From the IMG/VR virus record IMGVR_UViG_3300035158_000183, positions 62,001-126,000 of that record: DNA of 64,000 nucleotides. One strand, given 5' to 3'. Positions 3,077-58,060 of this stretch are shown here, piece after piece. How positions within the stretch are numbered: the first letter of the stretch is position 1; each line of letters starts with the position of its first letter. A program made the position numbers and the translations under genes. Source of the DNA: a virus. The notes under the pieces are model-generated. The model saw only the letters and a program-made list of their open reading frames with translations. It ran no database searches and was not told the origin of the DNA.

Positions 3077-6000
3077 TTAGCCACCCTGGAGTCCGTGGTG
3101 CTCCACCACATCCAACGATCCATACCACCTAACGTCATCAGTCTCGTTGGAACCTTGATCAATAATAAATCTGATGCCAACACCATCCACTGCAACATCC
3201 AAGGTCCACTCTTCTTCGTAACCACTGATATTTGACCAGGCATAAGTATTTATATTTTTACCAATTAATACCTTAGTGCCATCATTCCTACAAGCCACCA
3301 GCACTTGGCCAGTCCAGCCCTTACCTGCCTGGTCCCTTGTCTGATCTGCACCAGTGGGCCTGGCGATCAGATTAATTACACAACCATAGACCTTATTCGG
3401 ATCCATGTATAGCCATCCGGTGCCTAGAGCTTGTTCGGGGTAGAGTTGCTGCGAGCCGCTACCATTAAAGGTATGACCAAAGAGATGAGTGGTTGAGCGC
3501 TGTGTCTCGCTTCCTGCACTCACAGTACCAGTGGCAATCGCGTGTACTTCTTGGCCCCACCACCTAGCCCGAGCATACCTACCCTTGGCTATGGAATAAT
3601 CTGTATTAGCACGACAGTCTTCACCCAGTGCCAGAGAGTTCTGTCCTGTCCCAAAAGCTTCCCATCCTATTGCAATACTTCCTTGGCCGTTAGTGCTGGC
3701 CCCATAACCTACTGCCACACAGTATTGACTATTAATCCCTATTGCTCCCTTGCCGATTACGACATTTCGGGATGAGTAAGACTTGCTCTCTGCTCCTATA
3801 ACAATATTCTCTACTCCATCATTCTCAAGCTGACGGCCGATAGAGATAGCATCTTGGTAGCTGACATATGTTTCATACCCGATAGCAATACCATATGTAG
3901 CACCAGAATCTGTTGAGGTCTGTGGCCCGATTGCTATAGCATAATTAGAAGCGACAGCAGCTGCTGCGCCGACAGCAACTCCCTGAGTACTATTTTCGAT
4001 ATTTGCACTGTACCCTACAGCTACAGCCTGATTCGAAGAGGCATCTATGATTGCCTCCGCTCCCAACGCCACAGCCTGACCGGATTCCACAGCTGCTTCT
4101 CGCCCTATCCCAATACTGTCTGTCGCCTGAGGGGATGCTGTGTATCCTATTCCTATACCGTCAGCTCCACTAACTGTCGCTGCTTGCCCTATCCCTATAC
4201 CTCTATCAGCCGATATATCTACTTGTCGACCAATCCCAATTGCATCCTGGCCAGCTGCGTTACCCTGCCTGCCTATTGTGATGGCATCTGTGGATGTATC
4301 AGAAACGACGTTGTAGCCAATTGCAATTGAGTAATCTGACGCGGCCTCTGCTAATGGCCCTAGAGCTACTGCGCCCATGCCAGTTGTACTGGTCGTGTTA
4401 CCAATGGCTATACCAGACTCGCCAGAATCTTCTACGTTTGCGTTGTAACCTATCGCAATGCCATATTGGCTTACCGCGCCCACTGCAGCTTGGTCGCCCA
4501 GGGCTAATGATGATGTGGATTCTGCGGAAGCAGATTGGCCAATGGCCATACTAGTTGTGCCGGTGGCTTCCGCACCATAACCTATAGCTATTGCATAGAT
4601 AGCCTGGACAGAAGCACTAGCACCCATAGCAATACTATAGTCTGCAGGATTGGGGGGAGCTGGAGCGGCCTCCGCGCCGTAGCCTATTACGACGGCCTGC
4701 TGGGCGACCTGTACACTGGTACCAGAACCAAGAGCTATCGAGTGATCCGAAGCATCATCTAATTCCGCACCCTGTCCTATGGCAAGACCGCTTACTGAAG
4801 CTGCCGTAGTGGTCAGACCTATTGCTATAGCATTGTCGGCTGATATAGCAGCACTGACACCCACGGCAATACCGAAGTCGGAGCCTGCTGATGCCCATCG
4901 TCCTATAGCCACCGCACTATCAGCACTTACCTCGCTATCAGCACCCAGAGCTATAGCACACGTCGAGCTAGTAGTGGCACCAGTACCTATTGATACTGAA
5001 GCCGACGTGCCTGCTATGGCTCCCCCGCCCACAGCAACGCAAGCTCCATCTGCACTAGAACTCGTGCCTATTGCCACAGGCGAAGAACCACCACTAGCAC
5101 TGGCAGAAAAACCCATTGCAATAGCATACTGGCCAGCTGTGGTGCTTCGTCCTATGGCGATACCGTCCAGGTTGTCTACTTCCGAACTACGACCAATAGC
5201 TATACCATCATTACCATATGATGCAGCTTGGTATCCTACTGCGATTGCATAGGCAGAGCTAGCATCAGCCTGATACCCAATAGCCGTAGTAAAAGGGGCT
5301 GCCGTGTCAGCAGAAGCGCCGATAGCGATTGAGCCTGTACCTGTAGCAGAACAATTATAACCTACTACTACACAGTTGGTCTGCAGCGCATCTGCTTGCC
5401 GTCCGATTGCAACACTATTACTGTTGTCGGCTACTGCACCCTCGCCAATGCTGACCGTCCTCAGGCCCGACGCTTCTGCATCCTTGCCTATAGCCACAGT
5501 ACCTGTTGCAGACGCTGCGGCTTGATATCCGACAGCAATAGTATATTCATCACTACCTTGAGCTATATAGCCTATTCCTATCGTATAATCATCGCCGGCA
5601 TCTCCAGCTTGATATCCTATTGCTATCCCGTAATGACCAGAGCTAGAGAATTGCGAGCCGATGCCGACACTATAGTCTCCATCAGTACTGGCCTGAGATC
5701 CTAGACCTATTGCCTCTTCGCCACTAGCACCTGCTTGGTTCCCGATAGCAGCCGCGCCCTCGCCACTAGCACTAGCCTGGTAGCCTAGAGCTAATGAGTT
5801 ATCTGCTGATGTGGTGGCTGATACGCCTGCCGCCAGGGAGGCTTCTCCAGAAGCATCTGCGTTCATACCAACAGCAGCAGCAAAGTCAGTATTAACCGTA
5901 GCGCCATGACCCAGAGCCAAACCGCTCTCGGCTGCTGCACCGGCACCATATCCGAATGCATGTCCGTAATCGACACTAGCTGAAGCATTCACACCTACTG

Positions 6001-7930
6001 CTGCTGCATTCTCCGCCGAGCTACTTACCTGAGCGCTAACACCTACAGCCACAGAGCCTTGGCCTTCTACTCCACAAGCATACCCCACAGCTACAGAGTT
6101 TTCCGAATTATCCTGGACACTTGTTTGGGTTCCGAACACCGCAGCATTATCAGCCGAGGTACCTACACTACAACTTCTTCCTACTGCAATTGCAGATTCA
6201 GAGTTACTAGCAGCGCTATAGCCCATTGCTACAGCATAATCTGCCGTGCCAGAACACACGTAACCTATAGCCACTACCTGCTCTGCAGTTGAGCTGGAAC
6301 TGTAGCCCACTACTGTGGAGGCACCATTGCTGGCACCGACTGTTGCTTGGTATCCTATAGCTATCGAATGGTCTGAGTCGGCTGCCACTTCCGCCGCGTT
6401 ACCAATTGCGTAACTGTAATTTGAGTACACTATCGCACTGGCGCCCAGAGCATACGAGTAGGATGCGGTCTCGGCCCCGGGTGCTTCTACCGAGGCCTGA
6501 TAGCCCAGAGCGTACGAATATGATGCATTTCCGCTAGCATTAGCTACTATAGAGGCGCTGTATCCCAACGCGTAACTATAACTAGTATTACCGCCAGTAT
6601 CACACTGGATCTTGGCCTGGTAACCGATAGCGAAGCTGCTGTTAAGAGTAGCCGATGTCGCCGCATCGACGTTGGCATCATCGCCGATAGCGAAGCAACC
6701 TGCAACAGCTGAATCCTGACCCGCACTTATCCAAGCAGCCCACCCAATAGCGAACGACGAACCTAATACAGCATCAGTGCCAGTAGTAGTGATATAGGAT
6801 GAAGTGCCAATGGCAAAACTGTTTCCAATAGCAGAATCTGTTGCTCCTGTGTCTGCTAAGACATAAGCGCCCGATCCTATGGCAAAGTTCCCATCTAGGT
6901 TAGTGCCATTCTCCTTAGCGTCTACGTAGGCAGTCGGGCCGAACGCTACTGAGTTTACTACTGCCCCAGTGCCTGACTGTTTAACTTCTGCTGTATGACC
7001 GATTGCAATAGACGATGCACCGTTCGTGAAAGCATCTGTACCAATAGAGATAGAATTATCGGAATCGCCACTACCATGGCTCGCGCCATACCCGATAGCT
7101 ACAGCAGCGTCACCCCATGACCTGGAGTCTGCACCGATTGCCACTCCTCTACTATTATAGACCGTGGCATTATACCCTATAGCTGTCCCCCAACTGGCAC
7201 TTATACTCGCCTCTGGGCCTATGGCAGTACCCAGTGTAGAGGTGCTGGCGTCGTAGCCTATAGCTATGCCTCTGTACCCGGCTGAAGTGCTATATCCGAA
7301 TGCGATGGCATGCTCGCCACTAGTGGTTGCCTGGTCCCCCAGGGCATATGAGTTCTCACCAGCTGCTGTGGAATTAGGTCCTATGGCGAATGAGTTATTT
7401 CCCGAAGCATCCGCACTGACACCCTTCCTCTGAGTAGAGTTGGAGCCGGAACCTGCTTCAAAGAGCCCCATCTCGGAGCGTAGCTCCCACTGTGCTGGTG
7501 GTGAAAGCGGGTCGTCTACAAAGACAGCATCATTATTCTCGTCGTCGACGTAACAGACCCAGCCCTCTTCTGGGGTCGTGGCCTTCCATACACCGCTCGT
7601 CCACTCCACAATATCATTAGCAGCTGCTCCGCCCCAGCCTGCGTGTGTGGTGCCTGTACTATCCAGAATATATCTATCGCCAGTACTTGGGCCGCCCGGG
7701 GGCGCTGCGGTATTATCACGAATTTCTATGACGCTAGCACGTCTATTCCCGCCCCCACTAGCAGCTTCCCAGCTGCCCACGGCGACACCATATACGTTAA
7801 TCTGGCGGACATACAGAACCTTATCAATATTATCAAGATAAAGATTACCTTTGACCGAAGAGGTGGGCGCACCGTTACCGAATTGAATCTTGGCCCAGTT
7901 GGCTCTATCTAATTTTGATCCGAGTGCCAT
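3077..7930 (-). CDS. Giant tail fibre with YadA-head type beta-roll repeats (1617 aa)
   Basis: The start ATG has a strong AGGAGG site upstream. Residues 1-165 form a non-repetitive N-terminus with a W-E/Y-V-D segment like those at the base of phage fibres. Residues about 175-1450 are an array of some 14-17-residue repeats of the form [SA]-[IV]-A-[IVL]-G-x2-[AS]-x-[AS]; the span implies roughly 80-85 copies. This is the YadA/Hia head motif, which folds as a trimeric left-handed beta-roll. The C-terminal ~165 residues are a separate globular beta domain, a candidate tip. There is no YadA membrane anchor, so this is a phage fibre rather than an autotransporter. YadA heads usually have about 8-15 repeats, so this array is exceptionally long. 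A long rigid receptor-binding fibre is likely. Confidence 0.85.
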   Translation of the reverse strand: MALGSKLDRANWAKIQFGNGAPTSSVKGNLYLDNIDKVLYVRQINVYGVAVGSWEAASGGGNRRASVIEIRDNTAAPPGGPSTGDRYILDSTGTTHAGWGGAAANDIVEWTSGVWKATTPEEGWVCYVDDENNDAVFVDDPLSPPAQWELRSEMGLFEAGSGSNSTQRKGVSADASGNNSFAIGPNSTAAGENSYALGDQATTSGEHAIAFGYSTSAGYRGIAIGYDASTSTLGTAIGPEASISASWGTAIGYNATVYNSRGVAIGADSRSWGDAAVAIGYGASHGSGDSDNSISIGTDAFTNGASSIAIGHTAEVKQSGTGAVVNSVAFGPTAYVDAKENGTNLDGNFAIGSGAYVLADTGATDSAIGNSFAIGTSSYITTTGTDAVLGSSFAIGWAAWISAGQDSAVAGCFAIGDDANVDAATSATLNSSFAIGYQAKIQCDTGGNTSYSYALGYSASIVANASGNASYSYALGYQASVEAPGAETASYSYALGASAIVYSNYSYAIGNAAEVAADSDHSIAIGYQATVGASNGASTVVGYSSSSTAEQVVAIGYVCSGTADYAVAMGYSAASNSESAIAVGRSCSVGTSADNAAVFGTQTSVQDNSENSVAVGYACGVEGQGSVAVGVSAQVSSSAENAAAVGVNASASVDYGHAFGYGAGAAAESGLALGHGATVNTDFAAAVGMNADASGEASLAAGVSATTSADNSLALGYQASASGEGAAAIGNQAGASGEEAIGLGSQASTDGDYSVGIGSQFSSSGHYGIAIGYQAGDAGDDYTIGIGYIAQGSDEYTIAVGYQAAASATGTVAIGKDAEASGLRTVSIGEGAVADNSNSVAIGRQADALQTNCVVVGYNCSATGTGSIAIGASADTAAPFTTAIGYQADASSAYAIAVGYQAASYGNDGIAIGRSSEVDNLDGIAIGRSTTAGQYAIAMGFSASASGGSSPVAIGTSSSADGACVAVGGGAIAGTSASVSIGTGATTSSTCAIALGADSEVSADSAVAIGRWASAGSDFGIAVGVSAAISADNAIAIGLTTTAASVSGLAIGQGAELDDASDHSIALGSGTSVQVAQQAVVIGYGAEAAPAPPNPADYSIAMGASASVQAIYAIAIGYGAEATGTTSMAIGQSASAESTSSLALGDQAAVGAVSQYGIAIGYNANVEDSGESGIAIGNTTSTTGMGAVALGPLAEAASDYSIAIGYNVVSDTSTDAITIGRQGNAAGQDAIGIGRQVDISADRGIGIGQAATVSGADGIGIGYTASPQATDSIGIGREAAVESGQAVALGAEAIIDASSNQAVAVGYSANIENSTQGVAVGAAAAVASNYAIAIGPQTSTDSGATYGIAIGYETYVSYQDAISIGRQLENDGVENIVIGAESKSYSSRNVVIGKGAIGINSQYCVAVGYGASTNGQGSIAIGWEAFGTGQNSLALGEDCRANTDYSIAKGRYARARWWGQEVHAIATGTVSAGSETQRSTTHLFGHTFNGSGSQQLYPEQALGTGWLYMDPNKVYGCVINLIARPTGADQTRDQAGKGWTGQVLVACRNDGTKVLIGKNINTYAWSNISGYEEEWTLDVAVDGVGIRFIIDQGSNETDDVRWYGSLDVVEHHGLQGG
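3560..7400 (-). repeat. Tandem YadA-head coding repeats
   Basis: Degenerate tandem repeats of about 42-51 bases, each encoding one A-I-A-I-G-type beta-roll coil. They are conserved at the protein level and diverged at the DNA level, which shows an old, selected array rather than recent slippage. Confidence 0.85.
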
Positions 7931-45734: not shown

Positions 45735-48700
45735 CTACAACCTCTCATGGATTCTATTAGCCAGACGTTGCGGACTCAAGGCCTCTCGGTTGTCTACTGT
45801 TCTAATCCGGGTCCGACCGCCTAAGTCTCCAGCTTGTCTCATGAAATTCTGGCCCATCTGGTTCGCATCAGGTGTAGGTATTCTAATACTAGCACGAGAT
45901 GCGGATCTCATTCCACTCATGTCGTACACCTTAGGCGACTGCATTATCCTTGCTGTTGGAGGACTCATACCCTGTCCGGCTGCAGGACCAATATAGTCGT
46001 CCCCCAGGTTCCTGCCACCAGCTGCTCCCTCTTTCGGTGCCGACAGCGAACCAGATACTGATGGGGCTGCTAGCATTACGCCGGCCGCCAGACTAGCCCC
46101 TATCATCAGTGGGGCTCTGGCATGGCGCAAAGCCCCGAAGACAGCTGAAGTTCTAGTCTTAGCCATACGCAAGGCCCTGGTGGCATTTTCGGTGAGGCTC
46201 GGCTGCCCGTAAGCTTGTCGCTGCATGACTGCTTGTGCCACATCGAGGGAACCCGTACGACGCTTGTAATACATGTGTATTAAGGTATTTAAGTCATCTG
46301 GCACGCGGCCTTTGGCCAACTGTGCTTCCTTGACAGCAACGTCTACATCTGCACCAACTGCACGTACACCACTTATGATGTCTTCCGCAGCCTGTCTGGG
46401 GCTGAATTTCAGTGTTCTAGCACCCTCCCGACCGGTCACAGGATTAGTGATGCTACCAGATACTACACGATCTTCTTCGCCCATTATTCTCTTCAGCACA
46501 CTCTCCATCCCACTTGCATCTTGTTGCTGTATAGCATGGGCAATATCTTGATACATCTGACTCTGGTAGGCTCCGTGCTTACCACCAATAGCGGCTTCTT
46601 CTAGGTGCCAGAACAATTCAGCCATTGGACGATACTTCTCTGGAGCTGCGTACTGTAGGCCCAGTTTGGCTTTCTGTAAAGCTATATTAACCTGCGGGGT
46701 GGCTATTTTGGCTGTTGTGAGGTTCGCAGCTCCCTGCATCATAGCCTCACGTCTTGTCATTTCAGCGATACCCTTAACCCCTCCAAGCTTTGCTGCCTGG
46801 CTCTTGATCAGATCTTTCATAGCATAATGATTGAATAAATAGCTGGTATATCCTTCAGCAATTTCACTATCCATCTTGCGGGTTAGTCTGTTAAAGGTGT
46901 CTCTGTCTGATATAGCAGCTATAGAAAACGCATCTTTATCAAAATCACCTTTCATACCTACCATGGGAGATATATCTACTTGGCGTTGTACGCCACCAAT
47001 AGTCAATGACCCCTCTTGGTATGGTGAGGCTATTAGCTCGTCTGCTAGATTCCGGTCTACCTGAAACCGCGCGAATTGGAAACTCTCTGGTCCGGTGAGA
47101 GGGTGGCGCCAGACACCCGCAACCACAGCCTGATTCTTCTTTAGCAACATTTCTTTCTGGAACTTCAATAGCTCTCGCTGGTCATCCGTCTTGGCATTCT
47201 CCAGCAACTCATCCATCATTCTCTGGGCGGTGCGTGGGGAGACACGGAAAGCTCCAGCAGCTTGGGCTGTCTGTTCCGCAGTTTGTCGGACACCTGTCAG
47301 ATACCTGGTTCCCAACAGCTTGCCTTTAGCAATGGTTGCCTGGCGCTCTGTGGCAGCTACAACCTTGCTCCGTAATGAGGCAGCTGCGGCCTCAATTTCT
47401 TCTGTAGCCGCCCCTCTAGCTAGCTGATAGCGTAAATTTTGTAGTTCCTGCATAACATCCGTATCAATCATACGGCCGCCCTGAGCACGGAACTGCTGCA
47501 TAAGCTCTGGGGCTTCCTCAAAACCTGGCACATATAGCCGCTTGGCGCCCCCTAAAGCTTCTATATCCTGGCCTAACGGGACATACCTTCCTTGTGCTCT
47601 CCGCAAGTCTTCTTGGGTCATCTGTGCCAGTGTTTTCTCAGCAGTAGGTATATCCCCAGTCCATCGTTCGACAAGGCCTTCTTCACCCAGCACAGTGCCC
47701 ATCATACGATTAGCTGCTACTAAGTCAGTTTTGCCATAGGCTCGAGTACCCAGCTCTGCTGCCAATGCTTGGCCCTCCGCACCCTTCATGGCTAACAAGC
47801 GCATGCCAGCTTGCTCAATTGTAGCCATGCCACCTGCACCACCTTCAGCTGCTAGATCACCCAGACGACCCTTCATAAGCCCCATCACACCAGTGGAGTC
47901 TGCCACTGCCTGACCAATGCCGAGGCTATCTGCTACACCCTGATCCATCAGACCGAAAGTGAGGCCCATCTCTTCAGCAGTAAACCCAAAACGCTTGGCT
48001 GTTCTTGTCATACGCCGCTGCAGATCGAATACAGCACGGTCAGCAGTTGCTGCGTTCAGGCTACTGACTCCCATGATACGAGCTGGATCCTCTAAAAAGC
48101 TTCGGGCCACAGCCTCGCTTCCAGCCAGTGTGCCGGCATCTATCTTGCCAGCGGTTATGAGAGACATAGCCTCCATCTGCTGAGTCAGCTGGGCCATTAG
48201 GTTACGTTGGACCAGCTTGCCAGACCACATAGCCTGCACGGCCTGTCCGCCTATCTCTGTAGGTGCGCCGGCTACCCCGAGCATGCCAGCTAATTCTTTC
48301 TGCGTTTGAGCCCTACCCATGAACTTAATATCTTCACTGAAAAATTTCCACCACTTATCTCGACCTATGCGGTGCCGTTCGCGTACGTACACCGTAGCGG
48401 CATGATCGTCCGTAAGTTCGGCTGCAATAACTTCAGCAGCTTCCCCGCCTGCTTGAGCCTCTGCCCATAGCGGTGCGCCAGTGTGGCGCTCAACTCCTAT
48501 AAACCCTTCTTGTCCTATAGGAGTAGCGAATTCTCGCACTTCTCCGATGCGAGCACCCTTAAGCTTAGCCAGTATCTCTTCATTCACCCTGAGGCCTTCT
48601 CGTAGGTTTATCTTCTTTGCTACAACACGCTCATACTCCATCATATCGGCTGCTTGCTCTGCGATAAGTCCCTCTTCCAGGAACATTCTCTTGTTCAGTT

Positions 48701-50228
48701 CCTCAGCGAGAAAGTTTCCTTCGACCATTCCTCTCTGTAGGGCCTGCTTCTCGTTAGCAGTCTTGGCATAGAACGTTACTAGCTGAGGAGCAGTATAAGC
48801 CTCGGCTGCCGTAGCCGCATGTCCACCGTGTACCATTCTCTGATAGGCTGGGCCCTGAATCTTGCGTTCTAACCGGCTATAGTATTCGCCAAAAGTACCA
48901 GCGAATGGTGTGGCCTTAGCCTTAGCTTCCGCCGTGACACCCCACTCTCCCCTAATAAACTGGAAAGGTTGTTGTTCAGTACCCACTAAACGGCCTAGTG
49001 GGCCATATAGCTCTTCGGCAGGTGTCATACGCTCGTGCACGCCTGCCATAAATACACCTCTGGCTACGGGATCCGGACCGCCAACAGGCCACAACTGCCG
49101 TCCGCCTGCTGCAGCTTCCTCCACCATCTTTCCGCGTAATTCTTCAGTCATTTTGCCTGCATACACTGCTTGCTGGCCCAACATCCGTGCTCTAGCCCTG
49201 CCTCCAGAAGGCAGCACTGCTTCAGGCAAGGACCAAACTGCCATTGCTCTGTGTGATGCGTCCCGGTCATGAAGAGCTTCTATGATTCGATGATTTATCT
49301 CAATTACTGTGTTCTTAACACCTGTAGTGGTCTTCTGTCTGGATATGGCGTTGGCCAGAAGATCTACGTACTCATCAGCATAGTTGCGTATAGCTCCTGT
49401 CTCACCATAGGCACGCCGGGTTCTATATCTGGCTGTGAGTCGCTGTCCGCCATAGGCCATCCCTGCACCCTCTAGCGGAATATTTATAGCTTCTCTTCCG
49501 ATAGCCGCTCTTAGTACAGGAACTTCAGCAAACTTACCGCCACCTAGTGCTTCCCGGACCATCTCCACACCACGCCAGTCTATCTCCCCGCCAGCTTTGC
49601 GCATAGCTTCATCCAGCCTCTCCTGTATGGCCACGGCTTTGGGAAAGTCTTGAATAGGTTTTACTGGTCTGTCAATGGTCGTGCCCACAAACTCGCCCGG
49701 TGATATGGCTGCCTCCGCTCTGGCCGCCCATGGAGTGCGTCCGCCTAGAGTGGGATCTGCTGTTAGAGACCGCAGGCGCCCAGCAAAGACATCAGCATCA
49801 CCCAGCAAATCCTGAATCTCAGCAGCAGCTTGCCCATAAGCCTTCTTGTATGTAGACTGGCCCATGATATTTTGGAAAGCTGTGTAAGCTTCCTCTTCAC
49901 TATAACGGCCACCTGCCATAATAGCTTCATAGGCGGCAGCGGCTATATCATGCTGCAGCACCTTGCCGCCTGGGCCAATCTTGGATAGCTCGTGAATAGC
50001 CAGATCTGATGTGTCCACCGTGCTCTTGATGGTGCGTTGCAGGTTGAACCCACCCATACCAGGTACTCTTGCCGCTACTTCGCCAGCAATATCTCTGGGC
50101 ATTGTAGTGAAAAGACCCCTGAGAGCGGGATGGGCCCGGTACAAACCTACGCCAGCACCTCCCAGCAGAGCTGCACCTGCAGTAAACCCCCAGAGTGGTG
50201 AACGTTCTTGATAATTGTTATCTGGCAT
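45735..50228 (-). CDS. Large virion-region protein with candidate two-barrel RNA polymerase active-site motif (1497 aa)
   Basis: It starts as TAATG on the tape-measure stop. Most of the chain is helical and Ala/Gly/Arg-rich, as in proteins carried inside tails. Residues 1083-1101 read V-D-I-S-P-M-V-G-M-K-G-D-F-D-K-D-A-F-S. The three Asp (1095, 1097, 1099) and preceding strand match the metal-binding loop of RNA polymerase beta'/Rpb1 (N-A-D-F-D-G-D), with the same strand-to-loop spacing. An R-H-P at 1041-1043 resembles the R-x-P before that barrel. R-I-G-R-D-K (Lys625) and D-I-K (Lys635) might be the beta-side lysines. YonO and crAss-phage gp66 are single-chain polymerases with a DxDxD motif, and gp66 is packaged in virions. 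An ordinary structural protein is the alternative. The C-terminus has one hydrophobic stretch (~1380-1400). Confidence 0.5.
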   Translation of the reverse strand: MPDNNYQERSPLWGFTAGAALLGGAGVGLYRAHPALRGLFTTMPRDIAGEVAARVPGMGGFNLQRTIKSTVDTSDLAIHELSKIGPGGKVLQHDIAAAAYEAIMAGGRYSEEEAYTAFQNIMGQSTYKKAYGQAAAEIQDLLGDADVFAGRLRSLTADPTLGGRTPWAARAEAAISPGEFVGTTIDRPVKPIQDFPKAVAIQERLDEAMRKAGGEIDWRGVEMVREALGGGKFAEVPVLRAAIGREAINIPLEGAGMAYGGQRLTARYRTRRAYGETGAIRNYADEYVDLLANAISRQKTTTGVKNTVIEINHRIIEALHDRDASHRAMAVWSLPEAVLPSGGRARARMLGQQAVYAGKMTEELRGKMVEEAAAGGRQLWPVGGPDPVARGVFMAGVHERMTPAEELYGPLGRLVGTEQQPFQFIRGEWGVTAEAKAKATPFAGTFGEYYSRLERKIQGPAYQRMVHGGHAATAAEAYTAPQLVTFYAKTANEKQALQRGMVEGNFLAEELNKRMFLEEGLIAEQAADMMEYERVVAKKINLREGLRVNEEILAKLKGARIGEVREFATPIGQEGFIGVERHTGAPLWAEAQAGGEAAEVIAAELTDDHAATVYVRERHRIGRDKWWKFFSEDIKFMGRAQTQKELAGMLGVAGAPTEIGGQAVQAMWSGKLVQRNLMAQLTQQMEAMSLITAGKIDAGTLAGSEAVARSFLEDPARIMGVSSLNAATADRAVFDLQRRMTRTAKRFGFTAEEMGLTFGLMDQGVADSLGIGQAVADSTGVMGLMKGRLGDLAAEGGAGGMATIEQAGMRLLAMKGAEGQALAAELGTRAYGKTDLVAANRMMGTVLGEEGLVERWTGDIPTAEKTLAQMTQEDLRRAQGRYVPLGQDIEALGGAKRLYVPGFEEAPELMQQFRAQGGRMIDTDVMQELQNLRYQLARGAATEEIEAAAASLRSKVVAATERQATIAKGKLLGTRYLTGVRQTAEQTAQAAGAFRVSPRTAQRMMDELLENAKTDDQRELLKFQKEMLLKKNQAVVAGVWRHPLTGPESFQFARFQVDRNLADELIASPYQEGSLTIGGVQRQVDISPMVGMKGDFDKDAFSIAAISDRDTFNRLTRKMDSEIAEGYTSYLFNHYAMKDLIKSQAAKLGGVKGIAEMTRREAMMQGAANLTTAKIATPQVNIALQKAKLGLQYAAPEKYRPMAELFWHLEEAAIGGKHGAYQSQMYQDIAHAIQQQDASGMESVLKRIMGEEDRVVSGSITNPVTGREGARTLKFSPRQAAEDIISGVRAVGADVDVAVKEAQLAKGRVPDDLNTLIHMYYKRRTGSLDVAQAVMQRQAYGQPSLTENATRALRMAKTRTSAVFGALRHARAPLMIGASLAAGVMLAAPSVSGSLSAPKEGAAGGRNLGDDYIGPAAGQGMSPPTARIMQSPKVYDMSGMRSASRASIRIPTPDANQMGQNFMRQAGDLGGRTRIRTVDNREALSPQRLANRIHERL

Positions 50229-53200
50229 TACCTAACTCCCATCCTCTTGTGGGTTTCTCGCACTAATTCATCTCTAGAGTCAACGATTTCAATATCATAC
50301 TCATCCGGTCCTTTAGTAGCCAGACCACACCGCATCACCCTGCTGCCACTACCTCCATGGACCTTGGCTAGTGTTTCAGCATTCAGCTTGTGTATCATAA
50401 CATCTTCTAGCTCAGCACGGGCTTGCATATCTCGTATAAGGTCTTCATTAATATACGGTTTTCTAGCTAGGGCTCGCTTCCGAGCACCCCAAAGATCGAA
50501 CTCATGATGGTCGAGTCCGGCCATCTGCACATACTGAAGCTTAACATCCTCCATATCAACTGATGGACTATTATGATAGATTCCAATTGGAGAACAATAC
50601 ATGTGCTGGTCTTCAACTTCAAAATCGAGCACCGTGCCTTCGTATTGGGATCTTTCAATGGTCTCTACTCGATAAGCTATAAAGTTTTCACCTACTATAG
50701 CTGAAAGAGAAGAGCTAAGTGACTCTACTGCATATTGGGCTTTACCATTTCTCTTCTTTGGCCCATGCAAACTAGCAGGAATACCTTGTGCCTCATATAG
50801 CCGTTTGGCCATATAGCATAATTGTCTATTAGCAAGAATAAGTCTCCCCCGCTCATCTTTAGAAGCATCCCCTGTATTAAGGCCATCTAATAAAGCTGCT
50901 TGGCTCTTCTGAGTAATATTCTCTAACCAAGAAGGAGAATATTTTTGATCACAATATCTACCTACCCAATGATTAATAAGCCAACCGAAAATACTATTTG
51001 CTACTACTAAATATGCGCTTTCACTCTTAGGCTTCTTCTTAAATCTGATGATGCTATCTAATCCAAATTTATCTTTAATGATTTTTTGAGCTAATTCTAG
51101 AATTGGGACTTCATCTATATGCGCTGTAAACTGTACTCCTCTCATTCTGTCTCCAACAGCCCATGTGTTCCCTCCTGCTAAGTAATAGCCAATTAACCAA
51201 CAAGTAGCTTCATCTAATTTGATAAATCTATTGATTGGTTTAATTCTTCCTGTCTTCGGACGTAAAGTATCATCAAGTATCAGAGTATTGTTTGGAAAAC
51301 AATTAAGCTTACCAATATCTATTACTGGATCTTCATCAGTATGTTTTAGTAAAGGAATAGGCAAGTACGTATTTGTTGTAAGTTTACCTATAGGCATCCA
51401 TTTAGCAGAATAAGATTCATAATGCTTTGTAGTACAGAAATTACATTTCCACATTGTTGTTGCATGCGTGCATACAGATTCAGGCTTTAAATTGTATTTG
51501 CATCGTTCAGTCTGAATCCCAAGCACAATATGATTCTCTGTTGCTGCCATACAATAAACACTGTTGTGATGAGTTTTAACAATTATAATATCTTCATTTG
51601 TCTGTCTCTCAAAAACTTGTTTCACTTGGTTTTCTCCTTGCAAGGTAGTTAAAGACTGATCTAATTTTACGTCACTTGCATGGAGAATTCTACCATCTGA
51701 TGTTAAGATATCTTGTTTCGGAGGAACACACCACCCTAGCCAGTCTGCGCCTGGCAAGGAGTGGGTTTTGAAGTATTCCTTAGCCTTAAGTTCGCGTATC
51801 CATTCATCAAATGGGATCTTTCCATCTGTCTCGGCTCGCCACTGCTCTTCCATCTCCGGTGTGGCCCCGAAGCCTTCGGTCTTGCGCATAAGAGCAGTCG
51901 TAATTAGTGTCTGCTCATCTTCCTTGGTGGCTATACCCGCCTGCTCCTTAGCTCTAGCAGCTCCTGCTTCCTGTTGTAACCACTTGGACATATACAGCCG
52001 TTGTTCATTCTCAGGTATCAGGGACAGTATCTCCTCGCGCTCTTCTGGTGATCTGGCACCTGTGAAAGCAGCAAAGAAGTCACGCTCTCTGCGCGGCAAG
52101 GCCCTCATAGCAGCCACTGGTGACCCGAAGACGTCCAGCCCGAACATGGTCCGCTGCTGGAGTTCCTGTTCCTCCCTCACATCTGACCACCTATTATTGT
52201 GGCGCGCAATACGTTCTGCACGCTCTGCCTTCACCCAATCCAGCATATCGAAATATTCATTAATGTCACGACGTTGGCGAATTTGTTCAGGAATTCTGTT
52301 GAAACCTATAGCGTGTAGTGCCATGTCGGCTGCTGGCTGTAGAAAGTTCTCCACAGGACGATTCCAAAATGCTGCCTGGGTGCCAATAGCCTCTGAAGCT
52401 ATGTACTCCTCAATGGCTGATCGTTGTCTGATAAGCTTGGATGCCGGAGACATAGGCGTTAGATACTCCATAGGGGTCTCAATACCATGCAAGATAGTCT
52501 CGCTCATGCGTCCAGCCAAACGCTCAGCAGGAGTAAATCTTAGCTGCTCGAATTCATCGCGTAGCTCCTTGGCCTCGGCATACTTCTGCTCCGCCAGGAC
52601 TTGCCCGTAGTCCTGGTCGCCCATCATGGCTACAGCCTTCATGCGGCTGCCGCGCTTGGTCACATCATAGCGGCGGGACTCCATCTGAGGAGCCTTGATA
52701 GTAATCTTCTGCCCCTCAAAGTGCTCAGTGGCGAAGTCCATTGCCTTCTGCATGTTGGTGATGGCGCCCACGCCCTGCAGCTCGATAACCATGTCGCCGA
52801 ATTCTGCTGCCTTGATACGACGTGGATCTAAGACCTCTGTGACGGTGATATCCCTGGTGCCTAGTAGCTCTGGTCTGAAGCGATACTCAGTTATCTTGCG
52901 GCGCTGCTTCCTGGACTTGACCTGTTCCTCAACAGTTCTGACTAGCTGCTTATCTTGATCCGATAGCCTACCAAAGTTTCGCTTAGCCTTCTGTAGCGTC
53001 CACTTATATTCGTCTGACCACATAGCCACATCGCCCAGGATTTTAAGGCGGTGGACGAGTGGATACTCCTCTGGGTGGACCCCAGCTACCTCAGGATGCA
53101 GAGCCTCGTACCCAGGACCCGGCAGTCTGATTTCAGCTTCCTTGATCTTCTGGAATGGATTGCCATACTTCAGATCTAAGAAGTAGTCTTCGGGCATCCA

Positions 53201-56200
53201 GGACGGCATGGTATTCTTTAGAGGGTTATAGGTCTCAAGATAGCTTCTGGTGCGCGGAATAAAACGTCTCACTGGCTCCGAGTTGTGCAGAAGTAAATAA
53301 TCCCCAACAAAACAATGAGACTCTTCAACTTCTATATCAAAAACTTTAACTCCCGTGGCAGGCTCGGCTTTTACATTTCTAACTGAGTAATATAAAAACC
53401 CATCCTGAGTAAACTGCCTACCATTAGAGTGTTCGAAACTTTCTTCCCAATCATTGTCGAGAATAATGCGGCAATATCTATCATGTTGGTCTTTGCTAAA
53501 CTTAAGATAGGATCTAAGAGTTGGCTTGCGTTGTTCGCCCTGCGGATATTGATTGTTAGGTTTGGGAATTTCCAAGTAGTCATCTGTCACTGTGGCAAAT
53601 ACACCAAGTCTTGCCAGGACAATCCAAAGATCTCGCACTAGCCGATTAGACTTACTAGTAAACCCTCCTGAGTATTTCTCTTTATTACTCCACCCATCGC
53701 CACCAATTAAACCAGCAATTAGCTTAGGCAATAAAGAGATGGGCAGATCAATAAGCCACGCCAATTTCTTAGTGCCGGCATCGGTGCCGAATTGCTTAAG
53801 CCATCGTGCTAAAGGAATATTGTGTAGCCTTAAAGCACAACTTCCTTGTTCGGGTTTCGTAGATATGTTATAGCTAAATCCAAATCTGGCTGTGTATATT
53901 TCGCCCAAAATATGAGCTATATCCAGCTCTTCTAAAGCAAGAGTAAAAGTAATATCTCCAGCCTGTGGGTCAGCACTACCCTCAGCAATCCACCACCCCA
54001 CAAACCAAGCAAGATCACGACCGAATACAACCTTACGTGGAGTTCTTTTGGGAGAGTGCTTTTTCCGGTATGAATTTAATGCTTCCTTCGCATATTGATC
54101 GGGAACGATTTCTCTTAAATCTTTCCGAGACATAAGGGGATTATTCTCTAGTGCTTCTATAGCTTTGGCAAAATGTTTAGTGGCCCTAGAATAGATATAG
54201 TCGTCTGTCACCGTTGCTGTAGAAGCAGCGTAGGGACCAAAATCTATAGATATATCTTCGGAAGTAATACCACCGGGCAGCGGCATTACCACAAAATCAT
54301 TTGGCTCAATAGCATCAGCTCGAACCCATTGCCACGCAATCTCTGTGTCACACAATCCACAAACACTGCAATGTTTCTTAGGGCTATGTGGGGTGCATGG
54401 TCTGGCATGACTATCTCTACAGGGAATACGTTTATAAACAGCAACAGGGTGATTCCCCGTAACTCTTACCGTCTTATTACCAACCCTGGTATTGATAGTA
54501 ATCATCTGTTCGTCGGAGCCGCAGATCCTTTCAAAAACATTAAGTACTTGCTTTGTCTTCATACGGTGATCATAAACAGCATCACCTACTTGAATATCCT
54601 CGATGTTCTTCAGGCCATCCGGAGTAAAAACCTTCTCTCCGGCAGGTAAGCATGCACCTAGCGCACCACCCACATTGAGATGGCTCCATAGCCAGTACTC
54701 AGATCCGGTCTCCTTGCCCATGACGCCTAATGTTTGTAGGTTCTGGAAGAACTCCTCCCTACCCGTCATGGCATGCTCAATAGCTCCCTCAGCAAAACCG
54801 ACAAGACCTACAGCCTCACGTCTGCGGTACATAAGCTCGTTGAACAACTGGCTACCTTCTTCGGGTACTACCGGCGCTCCAGGACGCAAGCCCCCAAGCT
54901 CATACGCTGGCTCGGTTTCCTTGCGGACATCCGGTCGATGTACATACTCTCCCTCATCTAGCATCCATTCCTCAGGACGTATTAGCTTGCGAGGCTTGAG
55001 AGCTTTGCCCACTGTTGCCGCAACAAGAGGACCGAAAAATGGTACATCTTTACCGTAAGTGCCTGCAAGCGGGGCCGGCCGCTCATACTGATATTTTCTT
55101 TCGTAGTGGTACTTCCACTCGTCTGACCCGAACAGGGCCTTTAATGGATGGAGCCATGGGTCGTGTTCCCACTTCTCTTCTTCAGTACCATACATGCCCT
55201 TCTGGAATGCTCTGGTCCGCAACCTCTCCATGAAGTGAGGGCGGTAGTATTCTATGCGGCCACCCTCGTAAGGAGTAGAATTGTGCACCAAGAATGTACC
55301 CGCCTGGAATAGATGATCCGGGTGATCTACTTCGAAGTCATAGACAATATCATCATAATCTTCTGTTTCTATCGCGCAAATAACAGAGTAAAGTTTAGAA
55401 TTACAAACTTTATAGAAATATGGAATCCTACCTGGAGTCCACTTGATCCTATGCCTCCCCCTATAATCATTCTTCTCAAACTTACAAAGATAAGGATATT
55501 CTCCTAAGTTTAACAATATAGAGAATATTGCATCAAGAAGCCCTCGTCTACAAGAAGAGATAACACAGGTTCTTTGATCTAGATGTCCATCTCCACGCCG
55601 ATAACCCTCAACCAATTGTTCTTTAAAAGCTTTTGGTGCAGACATAAATACTTGTGGAAATATTTTGTCTTGTTGGCGCTCGCTATTATAAAACAGCTCA
55701 AAGAACATTCTGGCAAGCAAAGAACTGCAGATCCTTACGACCCAACAGCCTTCGTTTGTTTTCTTCTTGCCTTTCTTAAACCTTACTGTTGGTGTAATGC
55801 CAAATTCTTTCTCAGATATAGAGACAACATCATCAACTATCCATCGTTCTGATTTAGCGTGAACAGTTTCTATCATGTGGGGAATATCATTCTTATAAGA
55901 AATATTGCCTTCTGCTAAGAAGTAACCGAATAGACGGCCTAGTTCTGGTGTTAATGTTACAACTCTAGGGATTGAAGCCCCCCTAGATCTTTGAACCTTG
56001 CCACTATACCAATTCTTCTGTGCGGGGAGAAGAATATCTTCACAGATTAAGAAAAGACCAGTCTTTATCAAATCTTCAGAAATAAGCTCAGTTGATGTTT
56101 CCTTTAGCTGTGGGATAGGTATCTCTACTCTGTCGTTTACTCGAAGCCCTTTCGCTTCTACTTCAACAATTTCTTCTCCTCTAAGAACCGGAACCTTATG

Positions 56201-58060
56201 ATTCCCTGTTAGCTTGGTCTCTGTAATCCAACTAGCTCTTGTTTTGAATTTGATAATATTACCAGAAAACTTTCTTGTAAATATATTGACGACCTTAGCC
56301 TCTTCGCCATCTCTGCCTATTAAGACATCACCAATACGAACTTCATGGGCTTCCTTAAATGTTCCGGCATAACACATTGGAATCATTGAGGAATTCGCCA
56401 AGCACCTCCCGAACTCCCACCACCTACCCTTCCTGATGGGCACTTCCTTCTCACCAGAGTAAATTGCCTCCAGCTCCTCGGAAGTCTCAGTAGTACCCAG
56501 CAAGTTGAGTCCAGGTATAGCCGCCATTAGATTGCCAGAAAGCAGTCCCATGCCAGTGCTAAGGGCGCCCCAGGCTGCCACTCCACCTAGAAACCCTAGA
56601 GCCATTGGGTGCCTAGCCTTAGCAAGCAATCTACCCCCGGGTAGTTTCTTGACAGCTTTACCCAGCTTAGACTCCCATACGGCGTCAGCTATCTTATCAA
56701 CATGTTCTTTACGCAGATCTTCAGTAATATCTGCGAAGGCACGCTCGGGGCCTGCTGCGTGGCGTTGCCGAACTGCTGCACCCAATAAACCACCATAGCC
56801 GGCCAGGCCCCCCGCCAGCATACCTACGCCACCGAACCCTACGGCAGTCTTAAGGGATACCAGCCCAGGTGTCACAGCTTCCTGTTCTCGCAATGATTCT
56901 GATAGACCCAAAGCTTCTGATGCTCTTGCCCGTGCAAGGTTCAAATCAGTAAACATAGAAGCGACGCCGTAGAATAGACCTTCATCAAATCTAGGGGCTA
57001 GGGCCGTATAGAGACCGGTTGCCGCCCCAATAGCCAGACCAGCAGGTCTAAACATTTGTCCTGGTCGCTTGAACAGAAAGGCGCCAGCTGCGGCACCACC
57101 GGCAGTACCAAGGGCTGGTGCCCAAGCACTACCTTCCGCCCTCAAATAATCGTAATATTCTAGACCCTTATACGCAGCGGCCAGTCCTAAACCTTTCATC
57201 ATATACCGGCCGGCCATCTGCATAGCAGAGCCAGGCTGGACCTTCATGCTGCTGACCACAGGTATACGATTTAGGATAGGAAACACCTCGAACGGCTTCG
57301 AGAGTAGCATGTTAAGACGGCCCGCCGTAGTAGCCGCCTTGGCACGCATCAGCTTCCCAAGTATTTCACCCTTAGCCACTCGGCGCTGCATCTTCTCACT
57401 GAGCTGTATATCTTTACCAAAAATCCTAATCTTCTCGCGGAACTTGGCTCCCAATATCAGCTTGCGACGTCTCTCCGAAGGAGCCATCTCATCCAGCCAC
57501 TCCTTGTAGTCTATCGGGAGATCTAGCATCTCATATTCGCTTCTTAATAGAGCCTCATTGAGTGACTGATATTCTCCTAGTTTGGTCTTGCTAAGCCGTG
57601 CGTAGTAGTCGGCAATGGCAGAACCCTTCTGAGTGCCTGCAGTGATCTGCAGCCCCATCCCGATAGCTTTACTCTCGCGCGTTACATCACCAAATATCGC
57701 ACCGGTACGCTCCATCGTCAGACCGCCACCTGTACCAAAGATATTTCGGAGATATCCTCCGTACTGGCCTGCAGCCTTCAGCTGGGCCTCTGGCAGATCT
57801 ATTCTAGACCAGGTTTCTAGGGGCGATAGGAACTCAGAGATACGGAAGGTTCTGAGTATAGCTGCAGGGAAGGCTGTCTCGGCTGTTCTAATTCCCTGTA
57901 GGTAAACATCCCACAGTCTCCCGCCACCGTAAGGTATAAATCCAGACGCCATTATACCTGCACTAGCGAATCCCAGTTTAGCTAGCGGGGATAGTGTCTC
58001 GCTTGGTTGTGGGGGCTGTGGCCCGAAGGCTGTTATCGGATCAGCTGGCAATAATTTCAC
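50228..58060 (-). CDS. Tape-measure-like virion protein interrupted by three inteins (2610 aa precursor, 1391 aa spliced)
   Basis: The start is GTG at 58060 in a GTGA overlap with the preceding gene. Position directly after two chaperone-like genes, great length, helical character and several hydrophobic segments (residues ~290-550) support a tape measure. Three inteins occupy residues 553-927, 1137-1593 and 2111-2497, each starting with Cys, ending in His-Asn and followed by Ser. Removing them joins W-W-E-F-G-R to S-T-P-Y-E-G-G, G-A-L-G-A to S-E-P-V-R-R and D-W-L-G-W to S-P-S-V-D, giving 1391 residues. Inteins usually sit in conserved motifs, so these junctions should be functionally important. 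The tape measure sets tail length and helps DNA or proteins enter the cell. The family is inferred from position. Confidence 0.75.
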   Translation of the reverse strand: MKLLPADPITAFGPQPPQPSETLSPLAKLGFASAGIMASGFIPYGGGRLWDVYLQGIRTAETAFPAAILRTFRISEFLSPLETWSRIDLPEAQLKAAGQYGGYLRNIFGTGGGLTMERTGAIFGDVTRESKAIGMGLQITAGTQKGSAIADYYARLSKTKLGEYQSLNEALLRSEYEMLDLPIDYKEWLDEMAPSERRRKLILGAKFREKIRIFGKDIQLSEKMQRRVAKGEILGKLMRAKAATTAGRLNMLLSKPFEVFPILNRIPVVSSMKVQPGSAMQMAGRYMMKGLGLAAAYKGLEYYDYLRAEGSAWAPALGTAGGAAAGAFLFKRPGQMFRPAGLAIGAATGLYTALAPRFDEGLFYGVASMFTDLNLARARASEALGLSESLREQEAVTPGLVSLKTAVGFGGVGMLAGGLAGYGGLLGAAVRQRHAAGPERAFADITEDLRKEHVDKIADAVWESKLGKAVKKLPGGRLLAKARHPMALGFLGGVAAWGALSTGMGLLSGNLMAAIPGLNLLGTTETSEELEAIYSGEKEVPIRKGRWWEFGRCLANSSMIPMCYAGTFKEAHEVRIGDVLIGRDGEEAKVVNIFTRKFSGNIIKFKTRASWITETKLTGNHKVPVLRGEEIVEVEAKGLRVNDRVEIPIPQLKETSTELISEDLIKTGLFLICEDILLPAQKNWYSGKVQRSRGASIPRVVTLTPELGRLFGYFLAEGNISYKNDIPHMIETVHAKSERWIVDDVVSISEKEFGITPTVRFKKGKKKTNEGCWVVRICSSLLARMFFELFYNSERQQDKIFPQVFMSAPKAFKEQLVEGYRRGDGHLDQRTCVISSCRRGLLDAIFSILLNLGEYPYLCKFEKNDYRGRHRIKWTPGRIPYFYKVCNSKLYSVICAIETEDYDDIVYDFEVDHPDHLFQAGTFLVHNSTPYEGGRIEYYRPHFMERLRTRAFQKGMYGTEEEKWEHDPWLHPLKALFGSDEWKYHYERKYQYERPAPLAGTYGKDVPFFGPLVAATVGKALKPRKLIRPEEWMLDEGEYVHRPDVRKETEPAYELGGLRPGAPVVPEEGSQLFNELMYRRREAVGLVGFAEGAIEHAMTGREEFFQNLQTLGVMGKETGSEYWLWSHLNVGGALGACLPAGEKVFTPDGLKNIEDIQVGDAVYDHRMKTKQVLNVFERICGSDEQMITINTRVGNKTVRVTGNHPVAVYKRIPCRDSHARPCTPHSPKKHCSVCGLCDTEIAWQWVRADAIEPNDFVVMPLPGGITSEDISIDFGPYAASTATVTDDYIYSRATKHFAKAIEALENNPLMSRKDLREIVPDQYAKEALNSYRKKHSPKRTPRKVVFGRDLAWFVGWWIAEGSADPQAGDITFTLALEELDIAHILGEIYTARFGFSYNISTKPEQGSCALRLHNIPLARWLKQFGTDAGTKKLAWLIDLPISLLPKLIAGLIGGDGWSNKEKYSGGFTSKSNRLVRDLWIVLARLGVFATVTDDYLEIPKPNNQYPQGEQRKPTLRSYLKFSKDQHDRYCRIILDNDWEESFEHSNGRQFTQDGFLYYSVRNVKAEPATGVKVFDIEVEESHCFVGDYLLLHNSEPVRRFIPRTRSYLETYNPLKNTMPSWMPEDYFLDLKYGNPFQKIKEAEIRLPGPGYEALHPEVAGVHPEEYPLVHRLKILGDVAMWSDEYKWTLQKAKRNFGRLSDQDKQLVRTVEEQVKSRKQRRKITEYRFRPELLGTRDITVTEVLDPRRIKAAEFGDMVIELQGVGAITNMQKAMDFATEHFEGQKITIKAPQMESRRYDVTKRGSRMKAVAMMGDQDYGQVLAEQKYAEAKELRDEFEQLRFTPAERLAGRMSETILHGIETPMEYLTPMSPASKLIRQRSAIEEYIASEAIGTQAAFWNRPVENFLQPAADMALHAIGFNRIPEQIRQRRDINEYFDMLDWVKAERAERIARHNNRWSDVREEQELQQRTMFGLDVFGSPVAAMRALPRRERDFFAAFTGARSPEEREEILSLIPENEQRLYMSKWLQQEAGAARAKEQAGIATKEDEQTLITTALMRKTEGFGATPEMEEQWRAETDGKIPFDEWIRELKAKEYFKTHSLPGADWLGWCVPPKQDILTSDGRILHASDVKLDQSLTTLQGENQVKQVFERQTNEDIIIVKTHHNSVYCMAATENHIVLGIQTERCKYNLKPESVCTHATTMWKCNFCTTKHYESYSAKWMPIGKLTTNTYLPIPLLKHTDEDPVIDIGKLNCFPNNTLILDDTLRPKTGRIKPINRFIKLDEATCWLIGYYLAGGNTWAVGDRMRGVQFTAHIDEVPILELAQKIIKDKFGLDSIIRFKKKPKSESAYLVVANSIFGWLINHWVGRYCDQKYSPSWLENITQKSQAALLDGLNTGDASKDERGRLILANRQLCYMAKRLYEAQGIPASLHGPKKRNGKAQYAVESLSSSLSAIVGENFIAYRVETIERSQYEGTVLDFEVEDQHMYCSPIGIYHNSPSVDMEDVKLQYVQMAGLDHHEFDLWGARKRALARKPYINEDLIRDMQARAELEDVMIHKLNAETLAKVHGGSGSRVMRCGLATKGPDEYDIEIVDSRDELVRETHKRMGVR
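50570..51730 (-). mobile_element. Intein 3 in the tape-measure protein (387 aa, degenerate homing endonuclease)
   Basis: Starts at Cys2111 (C-V-P-P-K-Q-D-I-L), has a block B T-E-N-H, ends in G-I-Y-H-N before Ser2498. The endonuclease blocks are C-W-L-I-G-Y-Y-L-A-G-G and L-L-D-G-L-N-T-G-D-A; the first lacks the acidic residue expected before the last Gly, so cutting is probably lost while splicing residues remain. A four-Cys cluster (E-R-C, S-V-C, K-C-N-F-C) follows block B. The DNA is visibly more A/T-rich than the flanking exteins. Confidence 0.85.
53282..54652 (-). mobile_element. Intein 2 in the tape-measure protein (457 aa, LAGLIDADG endonuclease)
   Basis: Starts at Cys1137 (C-L-P-A-G-E-K-V-F-T), has block B V-T-G-N-H, endonuclease blocks F-V-G-W-W-I-A-E-G and L-I-A-G-L-I-G-G-D-G with both acidic residues present, and ends F-V-G-D-Y-L-L-L-H-N before Ser1594. 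A Cys/His-rich insertion (C-R-D-S-H, C-T-P-H, H-C-S-V-C-G-L-C) after block B may bind zinc. Splicing and homing both look intact. Confidence 0.9.
55280..56404 (-). mobile_element. Intein 1 in the tape-measure protein (375 aa, LAGLIDADG endonuclease)
   Basis: Starts at Cys553 (C-L-A-N-S-S-M-I-P), block A ends R-I-G-D-V-L-I, block B is L-T-G-N-H, endonuclease blocks are L-F-G-Y-F-L-A-E-G and L-V-E-G-Y-R-R-G-D-G, and the C-terminus is V-Y-D-F-E-V-D-H-P-D-H then F-L-V-H-N before Ser928. All standard splicing residues are present and both endonuclease acids are kept. It sits inside a W-W-E-F-G-R/S-T-P-Y-E-G-G motif of the extein. Confidence 0.9.

Follow-up and report, generated by a model that had tools for sequence, protein, structure and literature searches.

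Three predicted class-1 inteins in a single virion gene of an uncultured jumbo-type phage

The stretch of DNA analysed here (the window; 64,000 nucleotides) is a part of a 174,034-bp record of an uncultured jumbo-type phage, and one of its genes, which codes for a large tail-region protein, is interrupted by three predicted class-1 inteins. Their presence in one virion gene, with lengths of 375, 457 and 387 residues, had been proposed in the original prediction and is confirmed at the sequence level by Pfam matches, block residues and empty sites in relatives. The gene (Table 1) forms a 7.8-kb frame with no internal stop, its GTG start overlapping the stop of the upstream gene, and the inteins together account for 1219 of the 2610 residues, 1391 remaining after their removal. 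It very probably encodes a virion precursor with three bifunctional inteins that would excise themselves, their sites having been filled by separate site-specific lineages. It should be pointed out that the triple-intein gene is known from a single metagenomic assembly.

Table 1 Positions of the interrupted gene, its parts and further features (window numbering, unless marked as genome)
Feature	Position	Strand	Details
Precursor ORF, virion structural protein with three inteins	50228..58060	-	2610 aa, GTG start
Extein 1	56405..58060	-	552 aa, C-terminal end ...RKGRWWEFGR
Intein 1	55280..56404	-	aa 553-927, 375 aa, C...HN, both LAGLIDADG acids kept
Extein 2	54653..55279	-	209 aa, S+1 TPYEGG ... 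NVGGALGA
Intein 2	53282..54652	-	aa 1137-1593, 457 aa, C...HN, both LAGLIDADG acids kept
Extein 3	51731..53281	-	517 aa, S+1 EPVRRF ... LPGADWLGW
Intein 3	50570..51730	-	aa 2111-2497, 387 aa, C...HN
Gly186 codon GGA of intein 3	51173..51175	-	L104 allele: GAA (Glu)
Extein 4	50228..50569	-	113 aa + stop, S+1 PSVDMEDVKLQ
Next gene, tape measure candidate, outside the inteins	45735..50228	-	1497 aa; by position only
Five further inteins	genome 27715-32676, 34230-36323, 39309-43883 (L009/L010), 134881-138138 (L012)		

Concerning the identity of the inserted segments, the translated frame matches both Intein_splicing (PF14890; E 3.9e-23, three stretches) and LAGLIDADG_3 (E 1.7e-20, two stretches) in Pfam. 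Cys1, the terminal His-Asn and Ser+1 are found in all three inteins, together with block B (TxxH) in the form of TGNH, TGNH and TENH in inteins 1, 2 and 3, respectively; with these residues, the match to the splicing-domain family and the in-frame insertion absent from homologues, each of them has the features of a class 1 intein. Their composition is also distinct (GC 36–43% and GC3 25–35%, the exteins having 52.5% and 52%, respectively), and this low GC and GC3 marks all three as foreign to the gene. The AlphaFold model of intein 3 (mean pLDDT 85) matches the solved inteins TliVMA, PhoVMA and PI-SceI with E-values down to 7e-15. Both the profile and the fold matches indicate that, as in those three, a LAGLIDADG endonuclease is inserted in a Hint splicing domain, the identity to the solved inteins being about 10–12%. 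Unlike them, intein 3 lacks one catalytic acid, and block B of inteins 2 and 3 is followed directly by a Cys4 insert. The Cys4 motif of these two and some of their relatives (those in L079, L088 and L104 having been considered) may bind zinc, and lies in a low-confidence part of the intein 3 model.

Relatives of the gene were collected with a profile built from an alignment of four homologues, three isolate phages included, which yielded 72 viral loci; with the best 80 of the 264 loci from a second scan and six loci from genome contigs, at least 158 loci carrying this gene are available, at least 92 of them non-redundant. Scans of viral contigs with single sequences (extein 3 and each intein) found no relatives, and no family was found for the exteins in PHROGs. 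Among the loci listed, the closest intein-free relatives—L018, L019, L021 and L022—share 51–69% identity with the window protein over the whole protein (76%, 74%, 61% and 58%, respectively, in the core). They encode proteins of 1379–1400 residues that are continuous across all three junctions, those of L018 reading RKGRWWEFGR-SSPYEGGR, VGGALGA-SEPVRRF and LPGADWLGW-HPSVDMDDVKLK, and the sites are empty in many further relatives, too. It is these empty sites that fix the exact boundaries of the inteins, and the predicted spliced product of 1391 residues therefore has the normal size for the family. Relatives without the insertions had been named beforehand as evidence against the inteins; such relatives exist, yet they prove that the segments are insertions and provide the strongest support for them. 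The positions invaded lie in the 87th, 85th and 97th percentile of conservation (sites 1–3, respectively), which is only suggestive, the probabilities (joint p 0.007; within the conserved half 0.03) being modest and post hoc.

As far as the endonuclease is concerned, both acidic residues of the LAGLIDADG motifs are present in intein 1 (AEGN and GDGH) and intein 2 (AEGS and GDGW). In intein 3, the second motif keeps its Asp, but the first one reads LAGGN, the allele from L104 having LAEGN at this place, so that one of the two acids is missing; the codons concerned, GGA and GAA, differ by one base. The LAGLIDADG blocks are therefore present but not all of them are catalytically intact. The earlier claim of such blocks and intact splicing residues in all three inteins thus stands for the presence of the blocks and for the splicing residues, but not for the first motif of intein 3, which departs from AEG. 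Intein 3 has probably lost its endonuclease activity while keeping its splicing residues, and the gene family contains empty alleles, occupied alleles with intact endonuclease residues and occupied alleles with mutated ones. With this acid lost, at least the endonuclease has started to decay, and the loss is the point in favour of a reading in which decay has abolished splicing as well, with the long precursor being either non-functional or active in its unspliced form. Such decay is, however, highly improbable as an account of the whole gene, since the 7.8-kb frame is free of stops, all splicing residues are intact, the exteins align lengthwise to their relatives and the empty sites are precise.

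According to the preferred reading of self-excising, mobile inteins, excision would occur after translation by the class-1 pathway, in which an acyl shift at Cys1 would be followed by transesterification to Ser+1 and then by cyclisation of Asn, aided by the penultimate His, to give the 1391-residue protein. The LAGLIDADG domain would cut the empty allele in a co-infecting phage, and repair would copy the intein in (homing). Each site would have been filled by its own site-specific lineage, that of intein 3 being now represented by a copy able to splice, as judged from its residues, with an endonuclease that is probably dead. Splicing, cleavage and homing of the three inteins are what we infer from the sequences.

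The relationships among the inteins agree with separate arrivals at each site. Inteins allelic to those of the window were found at site 1 in L020 and L024, at site 2 in L079 and at site 3 in L104, and the best match of each window intein is a same-site intein of another phage. The three window inteins are pairwise 21–27% identical (BLAST), one pair being aligned over a partial length. In the intein tree, intein 1 groups with those from L020 and L024 (support 100/100), and a single clade of inteins 1, 2 and 3 is rejected (p-AU 2.8e-6); the test does not reject inteins 2 and 3 as sisters (p-AU 0.155), and a Cys4 insert is common to these two, the intein of L079 and one of those of L088. Duplication of one intein within the gene, followed by divergence into three, would draw on the same sister position and insert of inteins 2 and 3, but it is very unlikely in view of the rejected three-intein clade, the same-site best matches elsewhere and the unrelated extein sequences flanking the sites. 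The independent arrivals proposed originally are thus borne out for intein 1 as against the other two, but less clearly for inteins 2 and 3, which may both descend from one older family even if, as the sequences suggest, each site was reached separately.

Horizontal movement follows from the discordance between inteins and exteins together with the empty site 3 in the nearest relatives. Intein 3 and that of L104 are 69% identical, their host proteins 55%, and site 3 is empty in the nearest relatives listed of both the window phage and L104 (L018 and L101); the inteins of L020 and L024 are 50% identical, their exteins 36%. The vertical pairing of intein 1 with that of L020 is not rejected when the intein tree is considered alone (p-AU 0.109). 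At site 3, the two occupied alleles have Ser as the +1 residue, and close empty ones have His. The DNA identity beside site 3 is not clearly raised between the window and L104, which argues against a fresh co-conversion tract there.

Three more intein sites occur in the family: L055 and L128 share one, located six residues past site 1, and L088 has the other two, so that the loci listed, window included, contain at least 11 inteins at six or more sites. In addition, group I introns are probable at two further sites: the homologue in L073/L074 is split around a LAGLIDADG ORF, L073 matching RF00028 with 39.7 bits (E 3e-8), and that of the phage KLEB27-3 is split around an HNH-like ORF with a weak match to the same family (19.6 bits, E 0.03), both scores lying below the gathering score of 50. 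The homologue in L053 was also considered as intron-interrupted but was set aside, its halves overlapping and a frameshift being more likely. In a comparison over the 92 non-redundant loci, made with a profile built from the inteins of the window phage itself, eight inteins were found in 153,102 residues of this gene versus one in 277,076 residues of the flanking ORFs (per residue, binomial p 0.0016; by locus, Fisher p 0.03; both modest and post hoc). Judged from these sequences, mobile elements have entered this family of virion genes repeatedly and at several spots, a feature new here. Somewhat doubtful, although possible, is the more far-reaching idea that the family is a long-standing hotspot of self-splicing elements, in which occupancy of several sites lets an endonuclease-dead intein such as intein 3 persist by co-homing with an active neighbour.

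Among the other homologues, that of L056 (5837-8749) contains an in-frame nuclease-like domain (REase_MTES_1575; 5e-19) and the main gene of L063/L064 an in-frame HNH-like motif. A 446-residue intein is present in a second virion gene of L128 (89-2455), which matches the major head protein in PHROGs. The homologues L092–L097 lie on contigs 38–206 kb long, from assemblies of Alicyclobacillus, Oceanobacillus, Paenibacillus, a Clostridium MAG and others, and members of their lineage may be large prophages or phage-plasmids.

Inteins typically reside in proteins of replication and nucleotide metabolism; that a virion protein has been invaded at six or more sites in a single phage lineage suggests that conservation of the target can suffice. 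The allele states seen in this one family lay out the homing cycle, and the allele set is a natural setting in which to ask whether a disabled intein is helped to persist by its neighbours. The same question of co-homing of a degenerate neighbour is posed by the haloarchaeal MCM, whose gene has four intein sites and likewise shows several site-specific inteins, patchy occupancy and horizontal transfer, MCM being, however, a replicative helicase and the host described here a phage virion protein (PMC10643990). A regulatory role of inteins has been proposed for other proteins (PMC10643990), and by analogy the three inteins, sitting in a late virion protein, might have been retained as regulators, with conditional splicing during tail assembly and the precursor as a timing or quality-control form. 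This has little probability, as the patchy occupancy fits selfish mobility and the sites are empty in most of the relatives listed, the closest included, which therefore do not need the inteins.

With regard to phages, inteins have been described in mycobacteriophages for the terminase family (seven sites) and also for the portal, with movement between phages; in the part of that survey available, tail proteins and a three-intein protein do not appear, unlike the situation in the window gene (PMC5050341). The MCP gene of a crAss-like zeta phage is reported as similarly a virion gene invaded three times, but by group I introns instead of inteins (PMC10136315). A tail-region virion protein containing three inteins was not found in the literature searched, mostly without subscription journals. 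Multi-intein genes and phage terminase and portal inteins being known, it is the host gene and the unusually clear allele set that are unusual here. ME3, MTATph1 and KLEB27-3, of the 0305phi8-36 lineage, encode a homologous virion protein and a tail sheath in a similar gene order, which places the window phage in that lineage, yet they have this gene without an intein; the relative BtI1 has one in its terminase (PMC2147016).

The interrupted gene had originally been described as tape-measure-like, a description not supported by its homologues. The window protein is homologous to ME3_35, annotated as a virion structural protein, whose record notes similarity to a 0305phi8-36 protein with an accession two before that of the hub. 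The tape measure of 0305phi8-36 has been assigned to orf146, with the hub, orf147, directly after it (PMC2147016), an assignment of orf146 that rests mainly on tail length. Taking accession order as gene order, the homologue of the window protein is a virion protein encoded one gene upstream of the assigned tape measure, and the window gene itself therefore probably does not have this identity. The neighbouring 1497-residue ORF is, by its position, the better candidate, and no sequence match was found for or against such a role. A role of the host protein as tape measure, alone or together with this neighbour, is unlikely in the light of the place of orf146 directly before the hub, even though the protein is large, its gene belongs to the tail block and is one gene away from the chaperonin region, and extein 1 has hydrophobic stretches, as read from the sequence. 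The modelled core of the L018 homologue includes a staphylococcal-nuclease-like fold at residues 416–527 (Z 11.1, rmsd 2.8 over 107 residues), a likeness that by itself would not indicate activity, and the intein sites, at model residues 68, 277 and 794, are outside it. This region of the L018 gene (6170-8752) corresponds to extein 3 of the window, and ME3_35, with a gap at that place, lacks the fold.

In the same genome, a ribonucleotide reductase contains two further inteins, and RecA, DNA polymerase III alpha and a portal-like protein contain one each, which makes at least five more; the polymerase was named from Pfam and the other genes from reading their sequences. The phage thus carries at least eight inteins, and with three in the tail-region gene and one in the portal-like protein, half of the eight are in virion genes. 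The first ribonucleotide reductase intein ends with Q followed by Cys, and that of the portal-like protein with GN followed by Ser. A 1617-residue ORF at window positions 3077-7930 (minus strand) contains 12 YadA head repeats and DUF2793 and is probably a fibre. Domains of glycosyltransferase family 9, polysaccharide pyruvyl transferase and methyltransferase are also found in the phage genome (L010, 15444-17441 and 18335-19966).
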